In this document: piece by piece, positions 11,245-32,875 of the stretch | Position numbering within the stretch: position 1 is the stretch's first letter | Layout of the letters: each line of letters starts with the position of its first letter | Assembly (NCBI GenBank): GCA_949289045.1 | Contig: CASEMN010000010.1 | Span: 20,835-84,834 of the forward strand | DNA: 64,000 bases | DNA from: an uncultured Oscillospiraceae bacterium | GTDB lineage: Bacteria; Bacillota; Clostridia; Oscillospirales; Acutalibacteraceae | Reading direction: 5' to 3' | Notes under the pieces: generated by a model | Told to the model about the DNA's origin: nothing | The model's database searches: none | Seen by the model: only the letters and a program-made list of their open reading frames with translations | Made by a program: the position numbers and the translations under genes

Positions 11245-11433
11245 AGTGTACCTCCCTGATTTTGGATACATTATGCCATATAATGGATTAATCATACTAT
11301 TTTTTTATAATAAAAAACAATGTACAATTTGAATAAAAGAATAAGTGCGATAGATTTTTTTTATACAATGAAGAATATACTGTCCTGCATTTAATAAAAA
11401 ATAAAGACGCAAATAGGAGAAGGAAAAGTTTTT

Positions 11434-13704
11434 ATGGATAAATCAGTAAATAAAAAGTATAAAGTTTTACCTTTAGGTTCTGTAAGACCTACAGGTTATC
11501 TTAAAACTCAGATGCTTTTACAGGCAAAAAATCTTACCGGAAATATGGAGCTCTATGATGAATTCGGCTCAAACAGCGGATGGCTCGGCGGAAGCGGTGA
11601 GGGCTGGGAAAGAGGCCCGTATTACGTAAGAGGGCTTGTAGCTCTTGCCTATGCCTTAAATGATAAGAGTCTCATAAAACGGGCAGCGAAATGGATTGAT
11701 TACGCTGTAGACAATCAAAAGGATAACGGAGATTTCGGAAGCAGTGAAATCTTAAAAAAGGAAATATATTTTAAAAGCCGCCACACAAATGCGGAGCAGT
11801 GGTGGGCGAGAATGCCCATGCTCATGGCAATCAGAGATTACTATGAGGGGGAAATGAACCTTGGTAACGAAGATAAACGTATTCTGCCCTTTTTTGATAA
11901 ATACTTCAGGTTCCAGAAAAAGTACATAAAGCTGTATCCACTTGCAAGCTGGGCAAAACACCGGGGAGCCGATAATATTGAAATTGTTCTGTGGTACCGT
12001 GAAAAGTGCCTTGAAAAAGGTATGTCAGCCCATGAAGTCAGCTGGCTTCTTGACCTTGCGGAGATTCTGCTTAAACAGAGTTTTGACTGGGCGGAGTCTT
12101 TTGAAAAGACAAATACCAGGGAACACGTTGTAAACACCACTCAGGGCTTTAAATATCCTTTTTATAAATATCTGCTTACGGGAGATAAAAGGTATCTCGG
12201 CAGTTTAAAAAAGGGACTTGAAAGAATAGGTTCAGATCACGGTAGAATAGATAATTTGCCAAATGCCGATGAGGGAGCAAAGGATAACAAAGCCACCAAC
12301 GGAACGGAAACCTGCGCCGTTGTTGAAGGAATGTTGTCCTTTGAGCTGGGGGGAGAGATAACAGGCGAAAGTTATCTCTACGACCTTCTGGAAAGCTATT
12401 GCTATAACAATCTTCCCAACTGCTTTGACTATGAAATTTCATCATATAACTATTTTCAGCTTGAAAACAGTGTACTTATGAGCCACGGTCAGCACGGCTT
12501 CTGCAACGACCACGGCGACAGCAACGCCCTTGGAATAAGCGGCTTTGAATGTTGTTTCAGTAATCTCCATATGGGATATCCAAAGTTTGTCCAGAATATG
12601 TGGTTGACGGAAGGCGACATTCTTGTGCTTGCCGCTTACGGCGCAAACGAGTTGGAAACAAAAATAAATGGCAAACGAATTGCCTTTGAAGAAATTACGG
12701 ATTATCCCTACATAGATACAGTGAAACTTCTTTACAAAGGAGAAAAGACCAGATTAAAGCTTAAACTGCGTATTCCTAATTGGAGCCGTGAAACTCACAT
12801 TTATGTTAACGGCGAAGAGACGAAAATTAATGTCTGTGACGGCTATGCCATGATAAACAGGGAGTTCAGTCCATCCGATGTAATCGAAATAGTATTCAGA
12901 AGCGAAATTAAGGTACATGACTTTCACCTTAATACAATGTATGTAAAAAAGGGAGCCGTAATTTACTGTATGCCTGTTGCCGAAGACTGGCGTCAGATTA
13001 AGAACTTTGATTACCGCGGAATAAAATACGACGGAAAGGAAAACACAAAAAACTGGGAGATATATCCCAATGAGCCTTGGAACTTCACTTTCAGAAAAGA
13101 TACTGAAATGAAGTATGAAGAGAACAGTAAATACAGCTTTCTTTTGCCCTCTTCACCCGAAAATATTCCCGGGAAAATCCTTCTTACAATGGAGCGGGCG
13201 AAGAACTGGAACCTCTGCGGCAACATAGCGTCAACAATAGAGGTAGCCGATACCGATGGAAAAGAATATAAAAAATATCTTATTCCCACCGCTTTTACAA
13301 GACTTAAAATATCGGTATTCCCGAAAATATCAGATAAAAAGCTTTCAGATACAGTAATGGATGTAAAAGCCCTTGAAAAAATAAAAGCGTCCCTTGGAAA
13401 GGTTCCTGAATTTAAAACCAATTTGACAAGAGGATACGGTTTAGCTCAGCTTTCCTTTAAGGTGAAACACTCACCAAATTATTCTTACCGTATAATCTGG
13501 GGAGAGCAAAGCGGAGAATATGCGTATATTTCCGATTTGTTTCCCGAAAACCCTTATTCTTATGGTGGAGACCCATACGGAGCAAGAATTGCAAAGGATA
13601 AGATTGCGGTGAGCCTTGAAGAAAATAAAACATATTATCTTCGCATAGTGTGTCTGTGTAAAGGTAAGCCTTTTGAAATCTCTGATGAAGTACGTTTTAA
13701 CTGA
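11434..13704 (+). CDS. GH127-type beta-L-arabinofuranosidase (DUF1680 family)
   Basis: This 756-aa enzyme has an (alpha/alpha)6-barrel core of about 450 residues followed by beta-rich domains. The zinc-thiolate centre known from GH127 (HypBA1) is recognisable: Glu292 and Cys294 in NGTETC, and the adjacent pair Cys373-Cys374 in GFECCFSNLH, of which the first cysteine of the pair is the family nucleophile. No signal peptide is seen, so it should act in the cytoplasm on imported saccharides. The C-terminal ~100 residues look like a fibronectin-type sandwich. The gene leads a plus-strand cluster divergent from an AraC regulator. DUF1680 proteins vary in specificity, so arabinofuranose is likely rather than certain. 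Confidence 0.85.
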   Translation: MDKSVNKKYKVLPLGSVRPTGYLKTQMLLQAKNLTGNMELYDEFGSNSGWLGGSGEGWERGPYYVRGLVALAYALNDKSLIKRAAKWIDYAVDNQKDNGDFGSSEILKKEIYFKSRHTNAEQWWARMPMLMAIRDYYEGEMNLGNEDKRILPFFDKYFRFQKKYIKLYPLASWAKHRGADNIEIVLWYREKCLEKGMSAHEVSWLLDLAEILLKQSFDWAESFEKTNTREHVVNTTQGFKYPFYKYLLTGDKRYLGSLKKGLERIGSDHGRIDNLPNADEGAKDNKATNGTETCAVVEGMLSFELGGEITGESYLYDLLESYCYNNLPNCFDYEISSYNYFQLENSVLMSHGQHGFCNDHGDSNALGISGFECCFSNLHMGYPKFVQNMWLTEGDILVLAAYGANELETKINGKRIAFEEITDYPYIDTVKLLYKGEKTRLKLKLRIPNWSRETHIYVNGEETKINVCDGYAMINREFSPSDVIEIVFRSEIKVHDFHLNTMYVKKGAVIYCMPVAEDWRQIKNFDYRGIKYDGKENTKNWEIYPNEPWNFTFRKDTEMKYEENSKYSFLLPSSPENIPGKILLTMERAKNWNLCGNIASTIEVADTDGKEYKKYLIPTAFTRLKISVFPKISDKKLSDTVMDVKALEKIKASLGKVPEFKTNLTRGYGLAQLSFKVKHSPNYSYRIIWGEQSGEYAYISDLFPENPYSYGGDPYGARIAKDKIAVSLEENKTYYLRIVCLCKGKPFEISDEVRFN

Positions 13705-19410: not shown

Positions 19411-19932
19411 TTACTTCCCCATAAACATAGCCACAGAAACAGGAGCGAGTAAAAAGGATACGCAATCGGCCAAAAGTGCAGCCGCAAGAGTAAAGCGTGT
19501 TTTTTTTACTCCTACGGCTCCGTAGTAAACGGTTACCGCATAAAATGTAGTTTCCGTAGAACCCATAATAACTGAGGCAACTCTGCCTGAGAAAGAATCC
19601 GGTCCGGCGGTTTTTAGAAGGGCTTCATACATAGTAAGAGATCCGCTGCCTGAGACAGGGCTCAAAAGCACAAGGGGGAGCACATCTGAGGGAATTCCGG
19701 TAATTGATGCAATTGGTTTCATAAACCAGAGAATGACGTCAAGGCCTCCTGAGGCCTTGAGTACCGATACGGCGGCAACCAGGGCTATAAGAGCCGGGAG
19801 TATACTCAAAAAGGTGCTGAAGCCTTCCTTAGCGCCTTCTATAAAGCAGTCCATCACAGGGGTGCCTTTAATTAAACCGTAAACGATTATAAATACTGCC
19901 GTAATTGGTAAAATCCAGTCCGTAAAGGTCAT
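19411..19932 (-). CDS. spmB: Spore maturation protein B
   Basis: This protein is 173 aa from the ATG ending at 19932, which has an AAAGGAG site inside the end of spmA. Upstream in-frame sequence would overlap spmA and lacks a site. It is a nucleoside-transporter-like membrane protein with five or so hydrophobic segments and the SpmB patterns SPVSGSGSLTMYEAL and IMGSTETTFYAVTVYYG. SpmA and SpmB are needed for full dehydration of the spore core. The start is one base after the spmA stop. Its presence indicates a spore former. Confidence 0.94.
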   Translation of the reverse strand: MTFTDWILPITAVFIIVYGLIKGTPVMDCFIEGAKEGFSTFLSILPALIALVAAVSVLKASGGLDVILWFMKPIASITGIPSDVLPLVLLSPVSGSGSLTMYEALLKTAGPDSFSGRVASVIMGSTETTFYAVTVYYGAVGVKKTRFTLAAALLADCVSFLLAPVSVAMFMGK

Positions 19933-19933
19933 T

Positions 19934-20527
19934 TTAATATATCTCCTTTTTTCGGAAACACACGGATAAAATTTTGGCTGCTGTAATACCGGCTGCAAGG
20001 GCGGCGCAGGAGTTAAACCAGGCGGCGGGCATTATTTCCATGGGGTCAGCACTGCCGTACTGGTTTCGGAGCATGGCGACGGTTGTGGGGATTATGTGCA
20101 TTGCAGCTGTATTCATAACTACAAAAAATATCATGTTGTCCGTTGCGACCAAGGGATTTCTGTTTTCTTGATTCATTAACTTCATGGCTTTTATGCCTAA
20201 GGGCGTTGCAGCATTGCCTAAACCCAGTATATTTGCTGTAAGGTTCATTGAAATTGCGCCTGCGGTCTCTGAATTTTTTTTGAGGCCTGGAAAGATAAAT
20301 TTTAGTATCGGATACATGAAGGCACCGATTTTTTCAGTAAGACCTGACTCAGTTGCAATTCTCATAAGTCCGCTCCACAGGCAGAGCATACCGAGGAGTT
20401 TTATTGCAAGCTCAACGCCGCTGTTTCCCGCTTCAATGAGAGCAGAGGATACAGCTGACATGTTCCCTAAAGCTGCAGCGGCAAAAAAAGAAAAAATGAT
20501 AATTGCGGGCCAAATTATGTTCATCAT
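19934..20527 (-). CDS. spmA: Spore maturation protein A
   Basis: This 197-aa membrane protein has the SpmA patterns LCLWSGLMRIA and NILGLGNAATPLGIKAM. It forms an operon with spmB just downstream and acts with it in spore core dehydration. Two ATGs stand in tandem; a GGGAG site lies eight bases before the first. A perfect AT-rich inverted repeat at 20557-20580 lies upstream, between this gene and the divergent AbrB-type gene, and could be a regulatory site. I could not pick out a clear sporulation-sigma promoter. Confidence 0.94.
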   Translation of the reverse strand: MMNIIWPAIIIFSFFAAAALGNMSAVSSALIEAGNSGVELAIKLLGMLCLWSGLMRIATESGLTEKIGAFMYPILKFIFPGLKKNSETAGAISMNLTANILGLGNAATPLGIKAMKLMNQENRNPLVATDNMIFFVVMNTAAMHIIPTTVAMLRNQYGSADPMEIMPAAWFNSCAALAAGITAAKILSVCFRKKEIY

Positions 20528-20633: not shown

Positions 20634-20662
20634 TTGACATTTTTGCCACAAATTGGTATATT
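20634..20662 (+). promoter_or_regulatory. Sigma-A promoter of the AbrB-type gene
   Basis: TTGACA, a 17-nt spacer and TATATT, 36 bases before the ATG, which has an AGGAGTGA ribosome site. Confidence 0.85.
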
Positions 20663-20697
20663 TTAGTAGAAGCAAGCAGAAGAATAGGAGTGAGAAT

Positions 20698-20952
20698 ATG
20701 AAGGCGACAGGAATAGTAAGCACGATTGACGAAGTAGGACGTTTGGTACTTCCTAAAAAGATAAGAAATCAGTTAGACTTAAAGCAGGTAGAAATTTTTA
20801 TTGACGGAGACAGCATTGTATTAAAAAAATATAATCCTTCATGTATATTTTGCGGAAGCGCAGACGCAACTGTTGAGTATCACGGAAAAAAGGTGTGCGC
20901 CGACTGCATAGCAAAACTTGAAAAAATTTCCGATATTGCCGGAGATAACTGA
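20698..20952 (+). CDS. AbrB/SpoVT-type transition-state regulator with a Cys-rich tail
   Basis: The protein is 84 aa from the ATG with the AGGAGTGA site; an upstream frame to 20653 is inside the promoter. The N-terminal 47 residues form a SpoVT/AbrB swapped-hairpin DNA-binding domain (STIDEVGRLVLPKKIR). The C-terminal part has two Cys-x2-Cys pairs (IFCGSAD preceded by Cys, and VCADC), which could bind zinc. Proteins of this shape are common in Clostridia and control the move from growth to stationary phase or sporulation. Its position next to spmAB fits that role. A perfect bidirectional hairpin follows. Confidence 0.9.
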   Translation: MKATGIVSTIDEVGRLVLPKKIRNQLDLKQVEIFIDGDSIVLKKYNPSCIFCGSADATVEYHGKKVCADCIAKLEKISDIAGDN

Positions 20953-21054: not shown

Positions 21055-22020
21055 TTATAGTTTTGCGGCATTTTTTTCATATACCTTTAAATCATCGTCC
21101 CAATGTTTAAACTCTTCTTTACCCCGGTTATCGGTTATGGAGAAATTATTTTTTATGTATTCTCCAAGGTAAGCGGTTGCCTTCTGAGCGCCGTAAAAAT
21201 TAAGGTGATCGCCCTTATCATAGGTGTCGTTCTTCCAGTCGATATTAAGTTTATCAACTATGAGGTTCATGTCAAGGTATGTAAGGCCATATTCTTTTGC
21301 CAGCTTATCGACACCGTTATGCTTTTCATATGACCAGTTAGCGGGTGAAGCCGTACTTACAAGTACCAGTTCAATATTCTTTTCTTTGCACAGTTCAGCC
21401 ATCTTTCTGAAATAGTAAGTGCAGACCGGGGGAAGTCTTTTGGCTTTATCGGTTTTCTTCATATATTGAGGGGTACCTTCATAGGGTACTATTTTTCCGT
21501 TTATTCTAAAACCTTTAAGCTCATCACGCCATGTATAGCCTTTGGTTTTATGAAAATCATTGATTCCAAGTCTTTTCCATCTGTTATGATATTCAAAAAC
21601 CGGCATAAATTTTGATGCTGTATTCTGTGCTACTCTGAAAATGTCACCCAGGCGGCCTTCGGCGCGGTACATAAGGTTAGCTTCCAGAAAAACTACCTTA
21701 GGATTCTGGGATTCGGTGAAGCTGACTAAGAAGTTGTATGTATCCTGAACGTATTGGCGAGAAGTGCCGCATACATAAGTTGTATAGCCGTAATCTCTCC
21801 AAATTTGCATGGGAGAAAATGATGTAAAGCTTTCGCTGTCGCCTAAAATAAGGACATCTATTGTATTGGGCTTTTCTCCAAGAAATCCGTTTGCGGTTGT
21901 GTTGTGCATGTTGCGGTTATCTTTAGGCGAAACAATCCATGAAATTCCGCCCAGCATAAGTACAAGAATCATCAGGAAAGAAGTGATTCTGAAAAACTTT
22001 TTCAAAATTCTTTTTGTCAT
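21055..22020 (-). CDS. Membrane-anchored SGNH-type protein, DltD-like, of the dlt-like operon
   Basis: This 321-aa protein has one N-terminal membrane helix (residues 11-32) and an extracellular SGNH-hydrolase-like domain. The block I motif is ILGDSES with Ser62 as candidate nucleophile, and a GDHLNFYGA segment near residue 285 supplies the likely Asp and His. In AlgJ-, PatB- and DltD-type systems such a protein works outside the cell with an MBOAT partner to place an acyl group on a polymer. The gene follows the MBOAT gene by 13 bases with an AAGGAGGG site. It is the last gene of the operon. It is clearly DltD/AlgJ-like in place and shape, though not a close textbook DltD. Confidence 0.78.
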   Translation of the reverse strand: MTKRILKKFFRITSFLMILVLMLGGISWIVSPKDNRNMHNTTANGFLGEKPNTIDVLILGDSESFTSFSPMQIWRDYGYTTYVCGTSRQYVQDTYNFLVSFTESQNPKVVFLEANLMYRAEGRLGDIFRVAQNTASKFMPVFEYHNRWKRLGINDFHKTKGYTWRDELKGFRINGKIVPYEGTPQYMKKTDKAKRLPPVCTYYFRKMAELCKEKNIELVLVSTASPANWSYEKHNGVDKLAKEYGLTYLDMNLIVDKLNIDWKNDTYDKGDHLNFYGAQKATAYLGEYIKNNFSITDNRGKEEFKHWDDDLKVYEKNAAKL

Positions 22021-22033
22021 TTAAAATCCCTCC

Positions 22034-23623
22034 TTAGAAACCGGCGTACATGGGATCAACCGGTGCATATCCCATTCCGTAGGCTCCGAAAACGATTATG
22101 CACAGGATTGCCGCATAATAAACAGACCATCTTACAAAAGTATTTCTTTTGGCGATTTGTGCTCCGGGAGAAATGCCTTTTTCACGCATTACGCTGATGA
22201 CAAAGACAATGGCAACGCCTATTATAACAACTACGAAGTCTTTAATATCCATTCCGAGCTTTAAAAGAGTTGAGCCGGAAAAAGTGCTGAGAGAGAAATC
22301 GGTTACCATTATTTTGAACATGTTAAGACCGGCTCTCAAACCGTTGGCTCGGAAGAAAAGTTCTCCGATATTTATAAGGATGAAGGTTTTGATTATCTGC
22401 ATTATTCTGTAGGGCAGTGCTTCGCGGTTAATGTGCAGTTTACCTGTGATTTTTCTGACAAGGGGCAGAGTAATATTACCCATGGCGATCATGGCAAAGT
22501 GATAAAATCCGAAGAAAATATAGCTCCAGGCCGAACCGTGCCAGAGACCGTTGCAAAGCCATACTACACCTAAAGCCAATGTGCCGGAGATTAGAGGTCC
22601 GTAATAGCTGCCTACTTTTTTTCTTGCGGCAGAGGTAAGTTTTTTAAGAGGTTTAGTAAGTGAAAGGGGATAGTATACATAATCCCTGAACCATGTGCCG
22701 AGAGTGATATGCCATCTTGTCCAAAATTCTGAGATATTTTTTGAAAAGAAGGGCTGGCGGAAGTTTTCCGGTATTTTTACTCCAAATATTTCGCCTATAC
22801 CTATTACTATTTCCATAGTACCTGAGAAATCCATGTAAAGCTGGCAGGTATAGCAGAGCATGGCAACGAAAATAACGGTTCCGTCATAGCTTTCATAACG
22901 GTTAAAGACGGTTTTAACCAATAAATTCAGTCTGTCGGCAATGACAATCTTTTTGAAAAGTCCGAAAAGAATTCTCTGCATTCCGCTTATGAGGTTAGCG
23001 TATACAATTCTTTTTCCTTCAAAAAGTGAATTTGCGGTATCTGAATAGCGGCATATGGGGCCTTCCATTATTACGGGGAAAAAGCTCATAAACAGAGCAA
23101 GCCTGCCGAGGTTTTTATCGGCGCTGATTTTTCCCCTGTAAACGTCAACTATATAAGATACTGCCTGTAAAGTATAGAAAGAAATACCTATTGGCAGAGC
23201 AAATTTAGTTGCGGGGAAAACATCAGGGAGACCAAGAAGAGTTAAAAGGTTATTGACGTTAGTGCCGAAAAAGTTAAGATATTTCAGGCAAAGCAATAAT
23301 CCGATATGTATGCACACCATGAAAACTACGACTGCTCTCTGCTTATTTTTGACGGATGCCTTTATTGCTTTACGTTCTTCCTTTTCGGCTTCCTGAATTT
23401 TCAGTTTGCCGTCTGAGGCGATTGTATTGAGCCACAGTCCGGTGTAATGAATTGAGAATGTCGATAAAAGCAGGTAAATAATAAGCTTTCCGCTGATGCT
23501 CCAAAAGAAAATATAACTGGCAATGAGCAGGATTTTCCAGCGGTGCTTTTGAGGTGTAATAAAGTGCATTCCAATGACCAGCGGCAAGAAAAGCACTAAA
23601 AAGTCAACGGTATGGTATGACAT
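22034..23623 (-). CDS. MBOAT acyltransferase, DltB/AlgI-like
   Basis: This protein is 529 aa from the ATG that shares one base with the carrier-protein stop (TAATG), with GGAGGAGG directly before it. It has about eleven membrane segments and the MBOAT core: PIGISFYTLQAVSYIVDVYRG, a family motif beginning near residue 145, FWTRWHITLGTWFRDYVYYPL near 320, and the catalytic His in GLWHGSAWSYIFFGFYH near 380. DltB/AlgI proteins move acyl groups from a cytoplasmic donor across the membrane to a polymer. Here the donor should be the carrier protein encoded just upstream. It is longer than DltB (~400 aa) and closer to AlgI in length. Confidence 0.88.
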   Translation of the reverse strand: MSYHTVDFLVLFLPLVIGMHFITPQKHRWKILLIASYIFFWSISGKLIIYLLLSTFSIHYTGLWLNTIASDGKLKIQEAEKEERKAIKASVKNKQRAVVVFMVCIHIGLLLCLKYLNFFGTNVNNLLTLLGLPDVFPATKFALPIGISFYTLQAVSYIVDVYRGKISADKNLGRLALFMSFFPVIMEGPICRYSDTANSLFEGKRIVYANLISGMQRILFGLFKKIVIADRLNLLVKTVFNRYESYDGTVIFVAMLCYTCQLYMDFSGTMEIVIGIGEIFGVKIPENFRQPFFSKNISEFWTRWHITLGTWFRDYVYYPLSLTKPLKKLTSAARKKVGSYYGPLISGTLALGVVWLCNGLWHGSAWSYIFFGFYHFAMIAMGNITLPLVRKITGKLHINREALPYRIMQIIKTFILINIGELFFRANGLRAGLNMFKIMVTDFSLSTFSGSTLLKLGMDIKDFVVVIIGVAIVFVISVMREKGISPGAQIAKRNTFVRWSVYYAAILCIIVFGAYGMGYAPVDPMYAGF

Positions 23624-23853
23624 TATTCCTCCTCCTGAAGTCTGAGAATCATGTTCCAAAGACTCTGGGCAGAATTAAAGTTGGACGGGATAATTTCCAC
23701 TGTGGGAACAGTGATATCAAATTCGTCTTCGATTTCCGAAACGATAGAGAGAATTGCAAGTGAATCAAGGCGATGAGCGTCGATAAGGTCTGTGCAGGTT
23801 TCGTAGTCAACGTCGGGCTGAATTTCTTCAAGGATTTCGATTAATCTTTCCAT
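23623..23853 (-). CDS. Acyl/peptidyl carrier protein, DltC-like
   Basis: This protein is 76 aa from the ATG with an AAAGAGGT site; an ATG 18 bases upstream abuts the previous stop and has no site. The carrier motif is HRLDSLAILS, so Ser31 should receive phosphopantetheine. Acidic helix II (IVSEIEDEFDI) is typical of carrier proteins. A downstream NFNSAQSLWNMI segment resembles the DltC ending. The overlap with the MBOAT gene and the upstream adenylation enzyme place it as the shuttle holding an amino acyl thioester. Gene order (ligase, PLP enzyme, carrier, MBOAT, SGNH) differs from classical dltXABCD, where DltB precedes DltC. Confidence 0.88.
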   Translation of the reverse strand: MERLIEILEEIQPDVDYETCTDLIDAHRLDSLAILSIVSEIEDEFDITVPTVEIIPSNFNSAQSLWNMILRLQEEE

Positions 23854-23871
23854 TTTTGTTACCTCTTTCAT

Positions 23872-25044
23872 TTAAATTATAGATGTGTTTAAAAAGTCTG
23901 TGGGAGTTTGCTCACGGATTACGGAAAAGCCCGTTTTCTGTGAATATGTAAGTATCCTCGGTAGGGCTCTTGTAAGGAAAAGGGATATGCCTTCCGTCAT
24001 ACAGTAGGCGCCGGCATTTTTAAATACAAAAACGTCGCCTTTTTGTATTTCGTTTACAGGGTACTGCTTTACCAAAATGTCGTTTACGGTGCAGAGAGCT
24101 CCGCAGATTGTTATATGTTCATTTTCACCGGATCTGTCGGGGATGGTTTCCATATATGGTATTTTCATGGCCATGCTCTGACCGTAATAGCTTATGTGAT
24201 TCATTCCGCCGTCGGTAATGCAGTAAGTTTGCCCGCGGTTTGATTTAATGTCAACCGCTTTTGTAAGGTAAACGCCGCAAGAGGCGGTGATGAAGCGTCC
24301 AAGCTCCAGTGTGAGTTTTCCGTCAAAATTCAGAGAGGCGAGAATGTTTTTAAATTCACACAGGAACTCTTTTTCATTAAATTTTTTGTCCTCTCTAAAA
24401 TAGCTAACTGGAAGTCCCGGACCGTATTCCAGCTCTTTGGGAACAAAATTACATTGGCTTTTAAGTTCCGAAAGGAATTCGTTGATTTTTTCTGCTTCTC
24501 TTGTAAGACGTTTAAGTGACGTTTTCTGTGTGCCCGAAAAATACTGTATTCCGACTATAGAGGCAAATTCATTATTTTCCCTTAGAATTTCTATTATTTC
24601 ATCCTTTGTCATTCCGAACTGATTGCCGGAAGTAAGCCGCAAAAGAACATTTATCTTTCTGCCGTATTCCTCAGAGTATTTTTTAAGTATTTCCCATTGT
24701 GAAACGGATTCGGCAGTGTATGTCCCTATGTCTGGATAGTCCCTGAGCATCATCTGTGTGTCGTCATCATTTTTATATACGCCGGAAATCACAAGTTTTT
24801 CCATGGGTATACCGGATTTTACGCAGACGCTGAATTCTCCGGGAGAGCAGACTTCAAGACGCTCTGTCAGAGCACTCAGCGTCTTTATAATAAACGGATT
24901 TGCTTTCATAGCGAAGCAAATTCCGATATTTTTGCCGATGCTTTCTTTAATGTATTCCACTCGTCTTTTTAAGATATCCAGATCGAATATGTAAGTAGGG
25001 GTACCGTATTTTTTGGCAGCGTATTGTATTGTTTCTCTGTCCAT
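23872..25044 (-). CDS. Fold-type III PLP decarboxylase, LysA-like, in the dlt-like operon
   Basis: This protein is 390 aa from the ATG with an AAGAGGTGA site that overlaps the ligase stop. It is an alanine-racemase/ornithine-decarboxylase-fold PLP enzyme. Lys47 in CFAMKANP binds PLP. The glycine loop YGPGLPVSYF replaces the usual GGGLG form, and ELGR replaces the usual EPGR. Cys318 and Asp322 (CTVND) match the C-x3-D site that decarboxylases supply from the second subunit, and racemases lack this. So a decarboxylase is more likely than a racemase. Candidates are diaminopimelate to lysine, or a carrier-bound acidic amino acid, as BtrK does in butirosin synthesis. It is not obviously the housekeeping lysA. 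Confidence 0.8.
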   Translation of the reverse strand: MDRETIQYAAKKYGTPTYIFDLDILKRRVEYIKESIGKNIGICFAMKANPFIIKTLSALTERLEVCSPGEFSVCVKSGIPMEKLVISGVYKNDDDTQMMLRDYPDIGTYTAESVSQWEILKKYSEEYGRKINVLLRLTSGNQFGMTKDEIIEILRENNEFASIVGIQYFSGTQKTSLKRLTREAEKINEFLSELKSQCNFVPKELEYGPGLPVSYFREDKKFNEKEFLCEFKNILASLNFDGKLTLELGRFITASCGVYLTKAVDIKSNRGQTYCITDGGMNHISYYGQSMAMKIPYMETIPDRSGENEHITICGALCTVNDILVKQYPVNEIQKGDVFVFKNAGAYCMTEGISLFLTRALPRILTYSQKTGFSVIREQTPTDFLNTSII

Positions 25045-25048
25045 ATTT

Positions 25049-26554
25049 TCACCTCTTGAGATGAGCCAGAGCGCCGCGGTCAATTTTTCCGTTTTTGGTT
25101 ATGGGCATACTGTCAAGCTTTGTGTAAGACGTGGGTATCATGTATACGGGGAGAACTTCGGAAAGACTTTTTCTTATTTCTTTACCTGTAGTTTCTCCTG
25201 TGAAAAATGCCAAAAGTTTTGATTTTTCTTTAAGGAAAACGCAGCAGGCTCTTTCAACGCCATCTACTTCCGAAAGAGCTTTTTCAATTTCTTCAAGCTC
25301 TATTCTGTGGCCCATGTATTTAATCTGAAAATCCTTGCGTCCTGCAAAGTAAAGGTTGTCATTGTCACCCCAGTAGGCAAGGTCGCCGGTTCTGTATATG
25401 GGTTCCATATAATTCTTATTTACCGGATTCTGAACAAATCTGAGACTCGTTTGCTCCGGATTATTGTAATAGCCGAGACCTAATGCAGTACCGGATACGC
25501 AAAGTTCTCCCGTTACTCCTTTTTCGGTGACAATGCTGTCGTTATCGCTCAGGAGAAATACACGTTCGTTTGGGAAAGGTTTACCTATTGGCAGTCCGTC
25601 GCTGTAATCCATGCTGCGGTCAACTTTATGGTAAGTGCAGTTGCAGGTGATTTCAGTAGGGCCGTACAGGTTTACGAACTGAGCTTCTTTAAGTGCGTTC
25701 ATCCAGTTCTCAAGATGTTTTTTAGGCATTGTTTCTCCGCTGAAAAGTATTTTGTTTACCTTTTCGGGTACTTTGTAATCAAGTCCGTGAAATGCGCTTA
25801 TAAGGCACAGAGCTGAAACTGCCCAGACCATTGTAGTTACTTCTCTTTCGCATATGTAATCTAAAAGCATTGCAGGGGAGGAGAAAAGTGCTTTCGGTAT
25901 TATTTGAAGAGTGGCACCGGTTTTCATGGCTGAATAAATATCCTTTACGGAAACATCAAAGTCAAAAGGCGCCTGATTTCCGATTACATCGTCTTTTGTG
26001 ATTGAAAAAATCTCAGTAAAGTTGTCAATGAAATCAATAACGGAACGGTGGCTTATTAAAACGCCTTTGGGAACTCCCGTGGAACCGGAGGTGAAATTTG
26101 CATACAGTGGGTCGGTGTCTATCATTTTTTCTCTGATAGATGAAAGCAGTTTTTCATCTGCTTCTTCATTGATAAGCTCTTCAAAAGTGATGATTTTGAT
26201 TTTAGGCAGAGTTTCTTTAAGAGACTGTACCTTTGAGTTTTCTGTAACTGCAATTTCTGCTTCGAGGGTTTCAGCTATATGGCTTATTCTTACGGCAGGA
26301 AGCTCAGGGTTAAGCAGAACATAAAAGCAGCCTGCATAAACTGCACCGAAAAAAAGTTTTAATGTGTTTACGTTTTTATCCATAAATATAGGTACAGGGG
26401 TATTTGGTTTGAAATGTCTGATTAAGGCAGTACCGATTTTTTTGGCATCTCTTCGGAGCTCTGAAAAGCTGCAGAAGCTTATCTCATCCGCTGCGGCAAT
26501 TTTTTCAGGATAGTTAGCTGCCGATTTTTCGAGATATTCAAGAACGTTTTTCAT
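25049..26554 (-). CDS. Amino-acid adenylation enzyme, DltA-like
   Basis: This protein is 501 aa from the ATG with an AGGAGGGTT site; the frame extends upstream without one. It is a stand-alone adenylation domain of the NRPS/DltA class. Motifs include FTSGSTGVPKG near residue 150 (phosphate loop), FDFDVSVKDIYSA (A4), LFSGETMP, NLYGPTEIT (A5), YRTGDLAYW (A7) and NGKID with the catalytic Lys near the end. It should activate an amino acid and load it on the downstream carrier protein. In DltA, as I recall, the LFSGE segment reads FCGE with a Cys linked to D-Ala choice; Ser here suggests another substrate. It is first in the operon. Confidence 0.88.
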   Translation of the reverse strand: MKNVLEYLEKSAANYPEKIAAADEISFCSFSELRRDAKKIGTALIRHFKPNTPVPIFMDKNVNTLKLFFGAVYAGCFYVLLNPELPAVRISHIAETLEAEIAVTENSKVQSLKETLPKIKIITFEELINEEADEKLLSSIREKMIDTDPLYANFTSGSTGVPKGVLISHRSVIDFIDNFTEIFSITKDDVIGNQAPFDFDVSVKDIYSAMKTGATLQIIPKALFSSPAMLLDYICEREVTTMVWAVSALCLISAFHGLDYKVPEKVNKILFSGETMPKKHLENWMNALKEAQFVNLYGPTEITCNCTYHKVDRSMDYSDGLPIGKPFPNERVFLLSDNDSIVTEKGVTGELCVSGTALGLGYYNNPEQTSLRFVQNPVNKNYMEPIYRTGDLAYWGDNDNLYFAGRKDFQIKYMGHRIELEEIEKALSEVDGVERACCVFLKEKSKLLAFFTGETTGKEIRKSLSEVLPVYMIPTSYTKLDSMPITKNGKIDRGALAHLKR

Positions 26555-26622: not shown

Positions 26623-26639
26623 CTTAAGATATCTAAAGA
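26623..26639 (-). promoter_or_regulatory. Candidate response-regulator site upstream of the dlt-like operon
   Basis: On the minus strand, TCTTTAG and TCTTAAG start 10 bases apart, about 70-85 bases before the operon's first ATG. The same two heptamers, in the other order, lie upstream of the two-component genes. The TCTTTAG copy also forms part of the T-rich tail of the kinase terminator, so it may be partly coincidental. Confidence 0.45.
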
Positions 26640-26640
26640 A

Positions 26641-26679
26641 ACCCCGTTTACTGACAAATTCTGTCAATAAACGGGGTTC
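26641..26679 (-). terminator. Terminator of the two-component operon
   Basis: On the minus strand, AACCCCGTTTA and TAAACGGGGTT arms, with an inner TGACA/TGTCA pairing, are followed by TCTTT. It separates the kinase gene from the dlt-like operon. Confidence 0.85.
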
Positions 26680-26688
26680 TTGAAATTT

Positions 26689-28278
26689 TTAATATGCTTT
26701 TGGAATTATGATTTTAAATTCTGTGGAAAGACCTTTTTCCGGTGGATAAATTAGACGAATGTTACCGTGGTGAGCGTCGATTATTTTTTTGACTATGGCC
26801 ATTCCGAGGCCTGTTCCTTTACCTGAGGTTCTAGACATATCTCCTGTTGTAAACGGCTCAAAAATAGCTGTGACCATGTTTTCTGGAATTCCTATTCCGT
26901 AATCGCCAATGGTGATTACAGCGCCGTAGGTTTCGCTGTTTACTTCAAAGAAAATGCAGGTCCCCTTCGGATTATACTTTACAGCGTTTATAATTATATT
27001 TTCAATTACTCTTCGGAATAATGCTCTGTCGATTTTACAGTAAATTGGAGTTTCGGGAATTTCAACCTGAAGGTCAAATCCGGAAATTTCAAGCTCCTGA
27101 TATTTTTCGGCAAGATATTCTTTGCAGAATTCACAGATATCGCACTTTTCGGTATTTGCCGTAAAATCAGGGTGTTCCATTTTGCTGTATTCAAAAAACG
27201 AATCCGTAAGGGCGGACACGGCCTCCGCTTTTTTCTCAATGATTTTAATATATTTATCTTTTGTCTCTTCTGATACCATACCGTCGCAGATTGCCTTTGA
27301 ATATCCTTGTATAACTGTTATGGGAGTTTTTAAATCATGAGAAATATCTGTTAGTATCCTCTGGCGTTCTCTGTCGAGATACTCTCGCTTTTTTTCGCTC
27401 TCTTCAAGCCGCTGCGAAAGGTCGTTGAAGTTTTCCATAATTTCTTTAAATTCATAAGGACCCTTATATTTGTCTAAATCAAAAACTGCACCTCTTGTTA
27501 CGCCTAAAACTGCTTCGTTAACTGGAGCAATATATTTCTTAATTTGACGGCTTATCAGCAACGAAAAAATTAAAAGGATAAGGAAGAAGCAGGGAATAAG
27601 TATCCACCAAAGCTTGTAAACGGAGGTAAGTGCGTCATTATAGTATTCAGCGTTAAGTTCGGGCGTTACCATAATTATTGTTCTTTTTAATCCGTTATCG
27701 TTAGTATAAGTGAATTTTGATATACCATAATTTTTTGCGAATTTGCCTGTTAAAAAATTGAATTCTCTTTCTGTAAGATATTCTTTATCACCGAATAGAG
27801 AGCCTTCTACTATTCTGTAGTTTGCATCTAAAATGCTGAAATCGTTAACAAATTTAACGTCGTCTTTGTAAGTTGCCTTTATTACCATATAATAGTATTT
27901 ATTATTTTTAGACATGCCTGAAACTTCAATGAAATCATCGTTATTAAAATCAGGTATTTTATCTATTTCACTTTCAGTAAAAGAGATGCGAGGGGAAACA
28001 TTATCGCTTTTAATAATAATGTTATTGTTTTCGTCTAAAATTAAAATTCTGGTATCCTTGTAGCGGTTAATGGGTATAGAATTAAAATCATCCTGCTTCA
28101 ATTCGTCAAGATGGTTCGTTATGTTACTCATAGTAGGTACATTTACAATATTGTAGATGCTGAATTCCATGATCAAATACACCATCATGAACAAACCGAT
28201 TATCGAAATGGTAAAAAGCATGAGCCATCTAAGATAAATTGATGTAACGCTGTTCTTTCTAAATTTTTTAAACCGCAT
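26689..28278 (-). CDS. Sensor histidine kinase
   Basis: This 529-aa kinase has two membrane helices (residues ~18-42 and ~222-244) around a ~180-residue extracellular sensor. A linker follows, then the dimerisation domain with phospho-acceptor His314 in ISHDLKTP, and the ATPase domain with IENIIINAVKYNP (N box), GDYGIGIP (G1) and GKGTGLGMAI (G2). It overlaps the response-regulator stop by 11 bases, so the pair is coupled. Its large extracellular domain suggests an envelope or external chemical signal. The adjacent dlt-like operon and ABC exporter are plausible targets. Confidence 0.93.
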   Translation of the reverse strand: MRFKKFRKNSVTSIYLRWLMLFTISIIGLFMMVYLIMEFSIYNIVNVPTMSNITNHLDELKQDDFNSIPINRYKDTRILILDENNNIIIKSDNVSPRISFTESEIDKIPDFNNDDFIEVSGMSKNNKYYYMVIKATYKDDVKFVNDFSILDANYRIVEGSLFGDKEYLTEREFNFLTGKFAKNYGISKFTYTNDNGLKRTIIMVTPELNAEYYNDALTSVYKLWWILIPCFFLILLIFSLLISRQIKKYIAPVNEAVLGVTRGAVFDLDKYKGPYEFKEIMENFNDLSQRLEESEKKREYLDRERQRILTDISHDLKTPITVIQGYSKAICDGMVSEETKDKYIKIIEKKAEAVSALTDSFFEYSKMEHPDFTANTEKCDICEFCKEYLAEKYQELEISGFDLQVEIPETPIYCKIDRALFRRVIENIIINAVKYNPKGTCIFFEVNSETYGAVITIGDYGIGIPENMVTAIFEPFTTGDMSRTSGKGTGLGMAIVKKIIDAHHGNIRLIYPPEKGLSTEFKIIIPKAY

Positions 28279-28978
28279 CTATTTTATACCCCAGTCCTCT
28301 TATAGTTTTTATATATTTAGGATTCTTCGGATCATCCTCAATTTTTTCTCTTAAATTTGAGATGTGTACCATCATGGTATTATCGTCGGTTTCAAAAAAC
28401 TCTCCGTTTATACAGGCGTAAAGCTGAGCTTTCGTATATACTCTTCCGGGAGAGCTCATCAGTTTAATAAGAATTTTAAGTTCTGTAGAAGTTAGGGGAA
28501 CAAGGGTGTCTTTTTTTGTTAGCACAAAATTTTCAAGGTCAACGCAAAGTTCACCTATTTTAAGGAATCTTTCTTTTTTACTTTCAGCTGCATCGCTGCC
28601 CAAATGATAAAACCTGCGAAGGCTTGCGTTTATTTGAGCAATAACCTCCATTGGATTAAAGGGCTTTGTTATATATGCGTCAGCACCGATGTTGAGGCCT
28701 AAAATGCGGTCGTTATCGCTACTTTTTGCTGAGAGAATAATTATAGGTACATTGCTGAACTGTCTTACAGCTTTTGTAAGTTCATATCCGTTAATTTTAG
28801 GCATCATTATATCCAGAACCAGTAAATTGAATTTTTCGTTTTGTATTGCGCTTAAAGCCTGGGCTCCGTCGCTGGCAGTTGTAACTTCAAAGTTGCTGCC
28901 CTCAAGATAAAGACGCAAAAGCTCCGAAATGTCAATATCATCTTCAGCTATTAAAATTTTGTATTTCAAATTCTTCAC
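28268..28978 (-). CDS. OmpR/PhoB family response regulator
   Basis: This 236-aa regulator has a receiver domain (residues 1-120) with acidic pocket EDD at 12-14, phospho-acceptor Asp56 in VLDIMMP and Lys in YITKPF near 107. A winged-helix DNA-binding domain follows (140-236, TSTELKILIKLM and MVHISNLREKIEDDP). The frame can start with GTG at 28978 or TTG at 28969; the AAGGA site is very close to the GTG and rather far from the TTG, so the start is uncertain by three residues. It forms one operon with the kinase. A tandem repeat upstream at 29040-29056 could be its own binding site. Confidence 0.93.
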   Translation of the reverse strand: MKNLKYKILIAEDDIDISELLRLYLEGSNFEVTTASDGAQALSAIQNEKFNLLVLDIMMPKINGYELTKAVRQFSNVPIIILSAKSSDNDRILGLNIGADAYITKPFNPMEVIAQINASLRRFYHLGSDAAESKKERFLKIGELCVDLENFVLTKKDTLVPLTSTELKILIKLMSSPGRVYTKAQLYACINGEFFETDDNTMMVHISNLREKIEDDPKNPKYIKTIRGLGYKIDAV

Positions 28979-29175: not shown

Positions 29176-31020
29176 TTATTCGGCTGAGGCAAACTGGCTT
29201 TTGTAAAGTTCGGAATAAAATCCGCCTTTATCAAGAAGTTCTTGATGTTTGCCTGTTTCAACAATTTGTCCGTCATTCATAACCAAAATCATATCGGCTT
29301 TTCTGATTGTTGAAAGACGGTGAGCTATAACGAAGCTGGTCTTATTTTTCATCAGCTCTTCCATGGCGTCCTGAATTAAAAGTTCGGTTCTTGTATCAAC
29401 AGAGCTTGTAGCCTCATCGAGAATAAGAACTGCGGGATTTGCCAAAACAGCTCTGGCAATTGTTAAAAGCTGCCTCTGACCCTGAGAGATATTTGTGCCG
29501 TCCTCTTCAAGAGCCATATTGTATCCGTCGGCATAGGTGGAAATAAAGCTGTTGGCTTTTGCGGAAATGGCTGCATTTTTGATATCCTCTTCAGATGCAT
29601 CCATGTTGCCGTAGGCTATATTGTCATGAACTGTTCCTTTGAAAAGCCATGTGTCTTGCAAAACCATACCGAAGGCTTTGCGTAGCTGTGCCCTTGAAAG
29701 CTTTCTTATATCAATTCCATCAACTTTTATGCTTCCCGAATTAATATCGTAAAACCTCATTAATAAGTTAACAATGGTGGTTTTTCCGGCTCCGGTGGGA
29801 CCGACAATAGCTATAAGCTGACCCGGTTTAACGTGAAGGTTGAAGTTGCGTATAAGAGGCTTGTCCGGCGAATAGCTGAACTCAACGTTTTCAAAAGAAA
29901 TTTCTCCTTTGGGTGTGGGAAGATCGTATTCAACCGTTTCTTCAGGTTCATCTTCCTGTTCGAGAAGAATGAACACTCTTTCTGCCGAAGCAAGGGAAGA
30001 CTGTATGTTATTTGCGATATTTCCAAGGTCGGAAATAGGCTGGGTAAACATTTTTGAGTAAGTGATAAAGCTTGTAACGTCGCCGAGAGTAATCAGCCTT
30101 TTGAAAACATAAACGCCTCCGGCAACGCAGATCATAACATAGCCTATGTTGTTGATGAAATTAAGAAAGGGCATAATTGTACCGGAAATAAACTGAGCTT
30201 TTCTGCTTGAAGTATAAAGCTCTTCGTTAATTTCATTAAATTCATCAATTGCCTCTTTTTCGTGGCCGAAAACTTTAACGATATTGTGACCGTTATACAT
30301 TTCTTCAATATGTCCGTTAAGCTCTCCGGTACGATCCCACTGAGCACGGAAATATTTTCTGGAACGCTTTGCAACGAAAAGAGCAACTATGAGACAAGCG
30401 GGAATTACTGAAAGAGTGATAAGGGTCATTTCCCAGCTCACGTAAATCATCATTGCCAAAACGCCTATAAGGGTTGCAGTGGAAGTGATAATTTGAGTAA
30501 AGTTATTCTGCAGGGTGTTGCTGATGTTATCTATGTCGTTCATAATTCGGCTGAGAATTTCGCCTTTTGTGTTACTGTCAAAATACTTCAGGGGTAATTT
30601 TGAAATCTTTTGGTTTATTTTCTCACGCATATCCCTGACAACTGTTTGAGTAATGCCGGCCATTGTGTAATTCTGTACAAAAGTAAAAATTGCACTGCCA
30701 ACGTAAACTGCAAGCAATATTAACAATGTCTTTCCTATTGCACTCATATCAATTTGCTGACCCGAAAGCCTTACCTGAATTTGCTGCTGAATAGCGTCAA
30801 CCGAATCTCCCAAAAGCAAAGGTCCGATAATATTGAGAATGGTCGCCGCAATTCCTCCAAGAAGTGCTATGATGACAGGAAGTTTGTGGTTCGCAAGAAG
30901 CTTTAAAAGCTTTCCGGCTGTCTGCACTGAACTGACTGGTTTTTCACCGGGAGGTCTGTTGCCGGCTTCACGGCTGAAAGCTCTGATTTTTTTAGTAGGA
31001 GACGATTTTGTTTTTTTCAT
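29176..31020 (-). CDS. Heterodimeric ABC exporter, subunit with the canonical Walker B Glu
   Basis: This 614-aa half-transporter has six membrane helices (about residues 50-350) and a C-terminal ATPase domain. Walker A is GPTGAGKTT, and Walker B is VLILDEATSSVD with the catalytic Glu. The signature is ISQGQRQ rather than LSGGQ, so this subunit carries a degenerate signature. An ~45-residue basic, Pro-rich N-terminal extension precedes the first helix. It overlaps its partner gene in ATGA. Such pairs (BmrCD, LmrCD, TM287/288) export drugs, lipids or peptides. The nearby two-component system may control it, but a terminator separates them. Confidence 0.93.
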   Translation of the reverse strand: MKKTKSSPTKKIRAFSREAGNRPPGEKPVSSVQTAGKLLKLLANHKLPVIIALLGGIAATILNIIGPLLLGDSVDAIQQQIQVRLSGQQIDMSAIGKTLLILLAVYVGSAIFTFVQNYTMAGITQTVVRDMREKINQKISKLPLKYFDSNTKGEILSRIMNDIDNISNTLQNNFTQIITSTATLIGVLAMMIYVSWEMTLITLSVIPACLIVALFVAKRSRKYFRAQWDRTGELNGHIEEMYNGHNIVKVFGHEKEAIDEFNEINEELYTSSRKAQFISGTIMPFLNFINNIGYVMICVAGGVYVFKRLITLGDVTSFITYSKMFTQPISDLGNIANNIQSSLASAERVFILLEQEDEPEETVEYDLPTPKGEISFENVEFSYSPDKPLIRNFNLHVKPGQLIAIVGPTGAGKTTIVNLLMRFYDINSGSIKVDGIDIRKLSRAQLRKAFGMVLQDTWLFKGTVHDNIAYGNMDASEEDIKNAAISAKANSFISTYADGYNMALEEDGTNISQGQRQLLTIARAVLANPAVLILDEATSSVDTRTELLIQDAMEELMKNKTSFVIAHRLSTIRKADMILVMNDGQIVETGKHQELLDKGGFYSELYKSQFASAE

Positions 31021-32771
31021 TCTATCTCCTCCTTTGAAAGCTGTGATTCAACAATTTCTCTGTATACTTTACAGGTTTTAAGAAGCTCTTTATGAGTTCC
31101 CTGACCGGCAATCTCTCCGTCGTCAAGTACAATAATTTTGTCAGCGTTTAAAATTGTGCCAACTCTCTGAGCTACTATTATCTGTGTAGAATCAGCAAAA
31201 TTTTTTTGTATAGCTGCTCTGAGCAATGCATCTGTTTTAAAATCCAAAGCTGAAAAACTGTCGTCAAAAATATAAATTTCTGCGTTCCTAATAAGTGCAC
31301 GGGCGATGGAAATACGCTGTTTTTGTCCGCCGGAAAGATTTGTGGCGTTCTGTGAAAGTCTGCTTTCGAGCTTTTTGGGAAGCTGGTTTACAAAGTTTGC
31401 CGCTTGTGCGGTTTCAAGAGCCTTCCACATCTCTTCTTCAGTTGCGTCTTCCTTGCCGTAACGCAGGTTATCTGCAACAGTACCGCTGAAAAGCAATACC
31501 TTTTGGGGCACATAGCCGATTTTTTTATATAGGTCGGATAAAGCCATATCTTTAATATTTGTTCCGTCAACAAGTATCTCGCCGGAGCTTACGTCGTAAA
31601 AGCGGGAGATAAGATTTATAAGAGTTGTTTTTCCGCAGCCGGTGCCGCCGATAATAGCGGTGACTTCTCCCGGATTTGCGGTGAAACTTACATTATTTAT
31701 AACATTTCTCTCTGCTCCATCGTAACCGAAAGAAACATTTTTAAACTCAACTTTTCCCTGGCCGCCGATGGAAACCGCAGGAGTAAGTGGTTCTTTAATC
31801 ATGGGTTCCATGTCAAGAATTGCACATATACGTCTTGCTGAAATTGCAGCACGAGGAACCATTACAAACATGGAAGCGGCAAGTCCTACGGCAAAAACAA
31901 TCATAATAAGATACATCATAAAAGCCTGAAGGTTGCCTATAGTTCCGGCAATTTCCTGTGCCTGAGTGGTAACATCCATGTTGTTTACCTGTCTGCTGCC
32001 AAGCCAAATGAGAGCGATTATCATAGAGTACATTAAAAACATTGCAAGAGGAATAAGAGAAGCGAAGAGTCGGTTTGTTTTTAATGCTATTTCAGTCAGT
32101 TCAAAATTAGCTTTTCTGAAGCGTTCCTGCTCATGCTTTTGTCTGTTAAAAGCCCTTATAACTCGAACGCCGCCTAAACGCTCACGTACAACCTGATTTA
32201 AAGCGTCGGTTTTCTTCTGCATTTGCTCGAACCAGGGAAGTACTCTTTTAACGACAAAAAGAGCAATAAGAGCGATTATCGGTATTACTGTAAAAATAAC
32301 CAACGACAGAGTTTTGTTCATTGTGAAAGCCATAATGGCGCCGCCGACCATCATTATCGGAGCGCTGATAATCATTCTCATACTGACAAGCACAAGGTTT
32401 TGAATTTGTGTAATATCATTAGTAGAACGTGTTATCATTGACGATACGCCGATTTTATCTATATCGCATTGAGATAAACTTTCGGCTTTAAGAAAAACCG
32501 CACGGCGCAGCTCTTTACCGAATCCGGTTGAAGCTTTGCTTGAAAAATAACTGGAAAGTACAGCCGCAAAGACACCGAAAATCGAGGCAATTATCATAAA
32601 AAAGCCCATGATGTAAATATAAACGAGCTTGCCTCCTGCAATGCCGTTGTTCATTATATCCGCCATCATAGATGGAAGAACCAACTGCATTGCACTGTTG
32701 ATAAGAATGAAAATTGTGGCAAAAATTGCCGACCACTTATAATTTTTGAGGTAGCTGAGAACTTTCAGCAA
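31017..32771 (-). CDS. Heterodimeric ABC exporter, subunit with degenerate Walker B
   Basis: This protein is about 584 aa from TTG at 32771, which has GGGGGTGG six bases upstream. ATGs at 32786 and 32840 are in frame but lack a site. It has six membrane helices, then an ATPase domain with Walker A GGTGCGKTT and a perfect LSGGQKQR signature. Walker B is IYIFDDSFSALD, with Asp in place of the catalytic Glu. Together with the partner's ISQGQ signature this gives one working and one degenerate ATP site, the usual layout of heterodimeric exporters. It is first in the two-gene operon, behind a strong promoter. Confidence 0.92.
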   Translation of the reverse strand: MLKVLSYLKNYKWSAIFATIFILINSAMQLVLPSMMADIMNNGIAGGKLVYIYIMGFFMIIASIFGVFAAVLSSYFSSKASTGFGKELRRAVFLKAESLSQCDIDKIGVSSMITRSTNDITQIQNLVLVSMRMIISAPIMMVGGAIMAFTMNKTLSLVIFTVIPIIALIALFVVKRVLPWFEQMQKKTDALNQVVRERLGGVRVIRAFNRQKHEQERFRKANFELTEIALKTNRLFASLIPLAMFLMYSMIIALIWLGSRQVNNMDVTTQAQEIAGTIGNLQAFMMYLIMIVFAVGLAASMFVMVPRAAISARRICAILDMEPMIKEPLTPAVSIGGQGKVEFKNVSFGYDGAERNVINNVSFTANPGEVTAIIGGTGCGKTTLINLISRFYDVSSGEILVDGTNIKDMALSDLYKKIGYVPQKVLLFSGTVADNLRYGKEDATEEEMWKALETAQAANFVNQLPKKLESRLSQNATNLSGGQKQRISIARALIRNAEIYIFDDSFSALDFKTDALLRAAIQKNFADSTQIIVAQRVGTILNADKIIVLDDGEIAGQGTHKELLKTCKVYREIVESQLSKEEIE

Positions 32772-32875
32772 GTGATCCACCCCCATAAACATTTTAAAAT
32801 TAATGGTTGATAAAGGCCGCCTAACGGTCTTTAAATTCAAAACATATAAAATAATAGCAAAGAATTACAACAGAA

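Follow-up and report, generated by a model that had tools for sequence, protein, structure and literature searches.

A dlt-like operon with an added LysA-fold PLP enzyme: a candidate envelope aminoacylation pathway of Clostridia

The DNA analysed here (the window) is a stretch of 64,000 nucleotides, positions 20,835 to 84,834 of contig CASEMN010000010.1, from an uncultured Oscillospiraceae bacterium (assembly GCA_949289045.1) whose 98%-complete genome comprises 2.5 Mb in 31 contigs. A minus-strand operon at 26554-21055 of the window encodes an adenylation enzyme (the ligase), a LysA-fold pyridoxal phosphate (PLP) enzyme, a carrier protein, an MBOAT acyltransferase and an SGNH protein. We read the operon, with a probability of about 0.6, as a Dlt-like aminoacylation pathway with an extra PLP enzyme, in which an acidic amino acid would be loaded through its side chain and decarboxylated on the carrier, and the product passed to a surface polymer. 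The set recurs in dozens of other bacteria, mostly Clostridia. The initial annotation of this DNA had described a dlt-like operon with a decarboxylase-type PLP enzyme, and the five genes, their coordinates and their families were confirmed. The acyl-shuttle tyrosine in cis, the sister operons with an acetyltransferase or an empty slot, the linked two-component system and the Afc and Vin precedents go beyond that annotation. The parts are of known kinds, whereas their combination, spread and swappable slot appear to be new; no paper joining an MBOAT-SGNH pair with a PLP decarboxylase was found in the open PMC literature when several terms were required together. The five genes are as follows.

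25049..26554, minus strand: ligase, a stand-alone DltA-like adenylation enzyme of 501 aa (from family scores, pocket code and tree clade)
23872..25044, minus strand: fold-III PLP enzyme of 390 aa, predicted decarboxylase of a carrier-bound amino acid; Lys47 is the expected PLP lysine, and Cys318 and Asp322 are the decarboxylase pair
23623..23853, minus strand: carrier protein of 76 aa with Ser31 as the predicted phosphopantetheine site; translation could also begin earlier, at 23871
22034..23623, minus strand: MBOAT acyltransferase of 529 aa, catalytic-type His362 (NGxWHG) and C-terminal shuttle-like PMYAGF with Tyr526
21055..22020, minus strand: SGNH protein of 321 aa, with an N-terminal helix resembling a membrane anchor, Ser62 and His272

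The gaps between the genes, in the 5' to 3' order of the operon, are 4, 18, -1 and 13 bases. Each of the five starts is preceded by a GAGG that resembles a ribosome-binding site.

Conservation of the five-gene set

Named genomes were scanned with an alignment of the window PLP protein and 23 of the 120 relatives listed among its 7,107 homologs, and the best 80 of the 563 confirmed loci matching this alignment were taken as the locus set. Their neighbouring genes were scored with hidden Markov models built from the window proteins; the PLP gene is thus present by construction, and the other four genes are the finding. All five genes stand together at 74 of the 80 loci, and the remaining six (L013, L015, L030, L041, L063 and L073) end at contig ends, indicating that the five genes keep company more than by chance. 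The ligase is present at all 80 loci and the carrier at 77, the other three being cut by contig ends. The plain gene order, which the initial annotation had singled out for comparison with other genomes, is kept at 65 of the 74 complete loci. Five complete loci have an extra or split gene copy (L021, L042, L045, L052 and L087), and the SGNH match is weak (43-62 bits) at L049, L068 and L090. Four loci (L016, L023, L036 and L064) have two MBOAT-SGNH pairs with a carrier gene ahead of the second pair, as if two acceptors were served by one aminoacyl carrier. The locus titles name Oscillospiraceae, Lachnospiraceae, Agathobaculum, Erysipelotrichaceae, Acetobacterium, Bacilli and Enorma (Actinomycetota, L045).

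Counting the window genome, the PLP family occurs in 9 of 243 genomes of the class (>350 bits), with matches below 200 bits in five further genomes, and in 24 of 395 genomes of the order; in one member of the order the PLP gene is interrupted by an in-frame TAG (G546:C28:22829-24004). Mutual exclusion with dlt was considered and rejected: the nine PLP-family genomes and the 11 genomes with a DltA-like ligase (>480 bits) among the 243 do not overlap, and no exclusion is claimed because only ~0.4 shared genomes would be expected by chance. Plasmids gave 199 records with PLP matches; the ten listed are all below 29% identity, seven of them named lysA or type III PLP enzyme and the rest nameless, and the plasmid ligase matches are all below 60%. 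A PLP protein 45% identical to that of the window is encoded at 11255-12388 of phage record MT836540.1 (15-kb Bacteriophage sp. from faeces, unannotated), which may be bacterial DNA filed under phage.

Sequence features of the five proteins

The PLP enzyme passes PF00278 and PF02784, and barely passes the alanine racemase N-terminal domain PF01168 (25.3 vs. a cut-off of 24.1). It scores below the cut-off of lysA (TIGR01048, 180.6 vs. 297.9) and far below that of alr (TIGR00492, 17.6 vs. 168). Elsewhere, the genome encodes a LysA (483.5 vs. 297.9), an NspC (485.6 vs. 409.05) and an Alr (399.9 vs. 168) of its own. Readings of the PLP enzyme as LysA or as alanine racemase were rejected on the scores, the motifs and the separate genome copies. 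The family lacks the motifs HIGSQ, CESGD, EPGR and RPxLY, which define LysA. The segment at the place of RPxLY has G[R/Q]SM in common with BtrK, and BtrK is also the top solved structure for the family profile; a loop of 14-15 residues that both BtrK and LysA have is missing from the family. BtrK-like PLP enzymes with 198-214 bits to the family profile were also seen at five loci of class genomes (L157-L161), four of them near genes that by eye resemble thioesterase, carrier or synthase genes; these loci are possibly natural-product clusters.

The ligase passes the general adenylation model TIGR01733 (328.2 vs. 317.4) and lies under the DltA equivalog TIGR01734 (286.6 vs. 559.85), a strict cut-off passed in only 2 of the 243 class genomes. 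At E 1e-60 it is the only match to the DltA model in the source genome. Its motif is FSGE where DltA has FCGE, with Ser in all 79 aligned ligases. Pocket positions were mapped onto GrsA, whose known code was recovered correctly, and those of the window ligase are D200, V201, K204, S272, C304, N305 and K490. For comparison, 40 ligase regions without the PLP family, eight PLP-type regions and 11 true dlt regions were fetched. The code D-V-K-[I/V/T]-[L/M/I/F]-S-[L/V]-C-N-K is shared by 87/87 PLP-type ligases (79 aligned and eight fetched) and by none of 38 sister ligases, and it is unlike the code of Bacillus subtilis DltA (DLMTMCTVAK). A tree of 89 rows, consisting of 25 of the 79 family rows (24 of them random) and the fetched ligases and rooted on DltA, showed three separate clades, each with SH-aLRT support of 100: the PLP-type ligases, a sister group with no tailoring enzyme between ligase and carrier, and the 11 true DltA proteins. 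Seven rows resembling nonribosomal peptide synthetases (NRPS) diverge ahead of the sister clade. Lys at GrsA position 239 was tried as a marker of the PLP type and dropped, as it also occurs in 19 of the 20 no-tailoring sisters (the twentieth has Arg) and in three of the four ligases from operons with a GNAT gene.

These results bear out several details of the initial annotation, which had pointed to Cys318 and Asp322 of the PLP enzyme and to the Ser in the FCGE motif of the ligase, and had argued that the PLP enzyme is unlikely to be the housekeeping LysA or an alanine racemase. It had also named two outcomes that would refute the proposal: a ligase loading only D-alanine with a PLP enzyme acting as an alanine racemase, or a PLP enzyme that is the only LysA of the genome and acts on free diaminopimelate. 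As far as the sequence allows a judgement, neither applies, since the pocket is not that of DltA and the genome has a LysA and an Alr elsewhere.

The carrier passes PF00550 (23.4 vs. 20.8) and lies below the DltC model (29.6 vs. 68). The MBOAT passes PF03062 (61.9 vs. 27) and lies below DltB TIGR04091 (164.8 vs. 375); its WHG is conserved in the family alignment, and a C-terminal Y..F is present in 86 of 88 frames. In the excerpts of PMC12148441, MBOAT-SGNH pairs with such a shuttle motif at the C terminus are tied to acyl export onto envelope polymers. The fifth protein has no Pfam or NCBIfam match; its predicted structure models as an SGNH fold, and Ser62 and His272 are invariant in 55/55 rows. 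A DltX pattern matched six times in the 88 PLP-type loci, chance-like by eye, with the single match of the window ~16 kb from the operon; a DltX-like open reading frame was found in 10 of the 11 dlt loci. Another MBOAT of the source genome (L004:1072-2529) ends in the canonical FIYMNF, so that an ordinary MBOAT system probably exists in the genome besides this one.

Proposed route and competing explanations

In the proposed route, the ligase would load an acidic amino acid through the side-chain carboxyl group, and the PLP enzyme would strip the alpha-carboxyl group from the carrier-bound substrate. The MBOAT would then move the acyl group from the carrier to Tyr526, from which it would pass to Ser62 of the SGNH protein and finally to an envelope polymer, which would accept it at a hydroxyl group and is probably other than poly(glycerol phosphate). 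The surface would thereby gain a flexible and strongly basic amine. We infer that the substrate is acidic; by analogy, the favoured conversion is Asp to beta-alanyl, then Glu to gamma-aminobutyryl (from gamma-aminobutyrate, GABA), then diaminopimelate to lysyl, all on the carrier. A GABA thioester or ester is prone to lactam closure. For this reason, and because the closest reconstituted logic, that of AfcQ-AfcK-AfcP (PMC12186527), leads from Asp to beta-alanine, Asp is preferred to Glu. In the excerpts of that paper, AfcQ activates and loads L-Asp, via the side chain by the authors' reasoning, and does not activate beta-alanine, and AfcP takes off the alpha-carboxyl group on the carrier. Similarly, the excerpts of PMC11284099 report that VinN accepts 3-methylaspartate but not its decarboxylated form and that VinO works on the loaded carrier.

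As in Dlt (DltA-DltB-DltC-DltD and DltX), a stand-alone ligase, a carrier, an MBOAT and an SGNH protein share one operon and the MBOAT would be carrier-fed. The operon differs from Dlt in its extra PLP enzyme, in its order ligase-PLP enzyme-carrier-MBOAT-SGNH, in a 529-aa MBOAT that carries the shuttle-type tyrosine itself, without a visible DltX, and in a different ligase code and a separate ligase clade. In PatA-PatB and other MBOAT-SGNH acetyltransferases, too, the MBOAT carries a shuttle motif at its own C terminus and has an SGNH partner; however, this type uses acyl-CoA without a carrier protein according to the excerpts of PMC12148441, whereas here a carrier and a ligase adjoin the MBOAT. 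The AfcQ-AfcK-AfcP (AFC-BC11) and VinN-VinL-VinO (vicenistatin) sets, compared by description rather than by sequence, likewise have a ligase, a stand-alone carrier and a PLP decarboxylase acting on the loaded amino acid, but they belong to natural-product pathways with VinN-type ligases, and the excerpts of the two papers make no mention of MBOAT or SGNH proteins. In the butirosin set BtrJ-BtrI-BtrK, carrier-bound glutamate is converted to GABA, and BtrK is the best solved relative by profile, although it is only 22-24% identical to the PLP model, retains the loop deleted here and serves an antibiotic pathway. The exosortase A-associated pair TIGR03098 (ligase) and TIGR03099 (decarboxylase) also joins a ligase and a LysA-like enzyme in one NCBIfam system, but the window proteins score below both cut-offs (194.7 vs. 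592.35 and 176.4 vs. 478.45).

No PF04464 (TagB/F) protein was found in the 98%-complete genome. Among its three PF00884 proteins, two resemble soluble sulfatases, and the third (L163, 679 aa) shares a hydrophobic N-terminal part with LtaS; since arylsulfatase is its best family (107.7 vs. 481) and it is followed by a radical-SAM-like gene, it is read as a sulfatase as well. Thus, no clear LtaS is present among the three, a remote LtaS being possible, and the lack of PF04464 together with the sulfatase-like PF00884 proteins makes a poly(glycerol phosphate) acceptor doubtful. The teichoic acid acceptor suggested by the initial annotation is therefore less supported. No conserved polymer-synthesis locus beside the operon was recognised by eye among the families present at at least 5 of the 88 PLP-type loci.

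Several points weigh against the proposed route. The single PLP sequence of the window scores diaminopimelate decarboxylase just above BtrK (108 vs. 103.7 bits), the PLP tree places the family in its own clade (95/90) and does not settle whether BtrK or LysA is closer, and the predicted PLP structure has its lowest confidence at residues 284-289 and 350-354, close to where the specificity segment is expected. Lys239 alone does not tie an acidic substrate to decarboxylation, because sister ligases without a PLP gene have it too; there is no Arg at the ten code positions, and Arg331 of VinN, which AfcQ uses, could not be placed on the ligase. The full F.Y..F is present in only 5 of 88 MBOAT frames, the first Phe being mostly Pro or Leu. 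All steps past the identification of the genes are inferences.

The order of the steps is not fixed by sequence, and the same operon would serve if the PLP enzyme decarboxylated free Asp or Glu and the ligase then loaded finished beta-alanine or GABA, much as LysA, the nearest housekeeping relative, works on a free amino acid. However, the deleted loop and the preference of the profile for BtrK suit a bulky conjugate, VinN and AfcQ of the analogous sets reject the decarboxylated amino acid in the excerpts of their papers, and the ligase pocket has an extra basic residue, though one common to the sister ligases. We regard this order as unlikely. Slightly less likely still is the loading of meso-diaminopimelate and its decarboxylation on the carrier to lysyl, leaving lysine esters on the polymer. 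The LysA ancestry of the PLP enzyme fits this substrate, and diaminopimelate should be available, as the genome has its own LysA. The Arg and Tyr of RPxLY bind the far carboxylate of diaminopimelate in its decarboxylase, and the PLP family has the BtrK-like segment instead; this loss is not decisive, because the far carboxylate would here be the thioester.

A small diffusible metabolite or a lipid as the product, in place of a modified polymer, would be in keeping with the known trios of ligase, PLP decarboxylase and carrier in natural-product clusters and with the absence, by eye, of a recurrent polymer-synthesis family around the operon. The conserved SGNH protein and MBOAT with its shuttle-type end, the arrangement tied to envelope acyl export in the excerpts of PMC12148441, make this improbable. 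The least probable alternative, by a little, takes the set as a dlt operon that brings an alanine racemase of its own and makes D-alanyl esters. Four of the 120 listed PLP relatives are named alanine racemase, PF01168 is just above its cut-off and the nearest curated names include DltA, DltB and DltC. However, PF01168 is common to related folds, the alr score is a small fraction of its cut-off, the C-terminal match is to PF00278, the sheet domain of decarboxylases, while none to the C-terminal domain of alanine racemase was reported, and a full Alr is encoded elsewhere. The ligase code (DVK.xS.CNK), the clade apart from the 11 true DltA proteins and the lack of a visible DltX also speak against a dlt operon.

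A more specific form of the on-carrier route, which we hold tentatively and at somewhat less than even odds, is a widespread and so far nameless envelope pathway of Clostridia. In this form, Asp would be loaded through its side chain, converted on the carrier to beta-alanyl by the LysA-fold enzyme and esterified to a non-teichoic polymer through the MBOAT tyrosine relay; the pathway would be one of a series whose slot holds a PLP decarboxylase, a GNAT or nothing, and would have its own two-component system. D-alanylation is the textbook Gram-positive route to a lower surface charge and resistance to cationic peptides, and esters of beta- or gamma-amino acids are expected, from general chemistry, to exceed alpha-aminoacyl esters in basicity and stability. 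If the route is correct, many Clostridia, including gut ones, decorate a different polymer with a different aminoacyl group that is made on the carrier, and the properties of its ester would alter their encounter with host peptides. The set would unite two mechanisms known separately, the carrier-fed Dlt and the tyrosine-in-cis Pat, and the names alanine racemase and diaminopimelate decarboxylase on its relatives would need correcting.

Sister operons and flanking genes

The no-tailoring sister group comprises 20 ligases, 19 with the code DAKCAGLGMK. The carrier, MBOAT and SGNH genes directly follow the ligase in 18 of the 20; they lie ahead of it at L113, and the L130 stretch has the ligase alone. 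Four sister operons have a GNAT acetyltransferase gene in the slot between ligase and carrier (L101:7195-7989, L117:7299-8096, L124:7192-7962 and L127:4951-5751), and their ligase codes, such as DSKDMCIVDK, resemble a glutamate code. The slot thus appears to be swappable, holding a PLP decarboxylase, a GNAT or nothing, which appears new, and with an interchangeable slot enzyme bacteria could swap the chemistry of the surface group. The fetched regions also hold 14 other sister ligases and seven further NRPS-like ligases. Two of these 14 (L102:5949-7463 and L104:2346-3839), neighboured by carrier, MBOAT and SGNH genes, have Ser in place of the amino-binding Asp235 and probably load a substrate other than an amino acid. 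At L103, L106, L107 and L108, two or three tandem ligase genes accompany one carrier and a DltB-size MBOAT without the Y..F end. A megaplasmid of Paenibacillus cellulosilyticus (L167:6968-9588) has three consecutive genes, for a sister-type ligase (471 bits), a 270-aa protein and a carrier (83 bits), and no MBOAT match.

Upstream of the operon, the following features lie in the window.

26636..26681, minus strand: hairpin resembling an intrinsic terminator, separating the operon from the sensor-kinase gene
26689..28278, minus strand: sensor histidine kinase resembling VanS/WalK; its scores reach the cut-off of none of the 25 families shown
28268..28978, minus strand: response regulator resembling VanR, likewise under every cut-off of the 25 families shown

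The hairpin (-28 kcal/mol, z -7.3) has a T-rich 3' end and was equalled in stability by 0/200 shuffles; it is missing from the list of a consensus terminator scan. The kinase and regulator pair resembles VanS/VanR-type systems, under the cut-offs of all families shown. At 30 of the 70 PLP-type loci that extend 3 kb or more upstream of the ligase, relatives of the kinase and the regulator occur there, at distances of up to 3 and 5 kb; the other 18 of the 88 loci were too short. The kinase matches near the ligase comprise 25 strong (>200 bits) and five weak (41-54 bits) ones, and some pairs are divergent. No such relatives were found upstream at the 20 no-tailoring, 11 dlt and 13 other loci. The sensor kinase (30 loci) and the regulator (22) are the commonest neighbour families at the 88 loci, and the linked two-component system likely regulates the operon.

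Just past the operon end, window positions 19411-20527 and 20653-20952 hold, by eye, SpmA/SpmB-like spore-maturation genes and a small AbrB-like regulator. On the other side, a pair of ABC exporter half-transporter genes, also identified by eye, adjoins the two-component genes at 29176-32840, and an exporter-like family is present at 9 of the 88 PLP-type loci.

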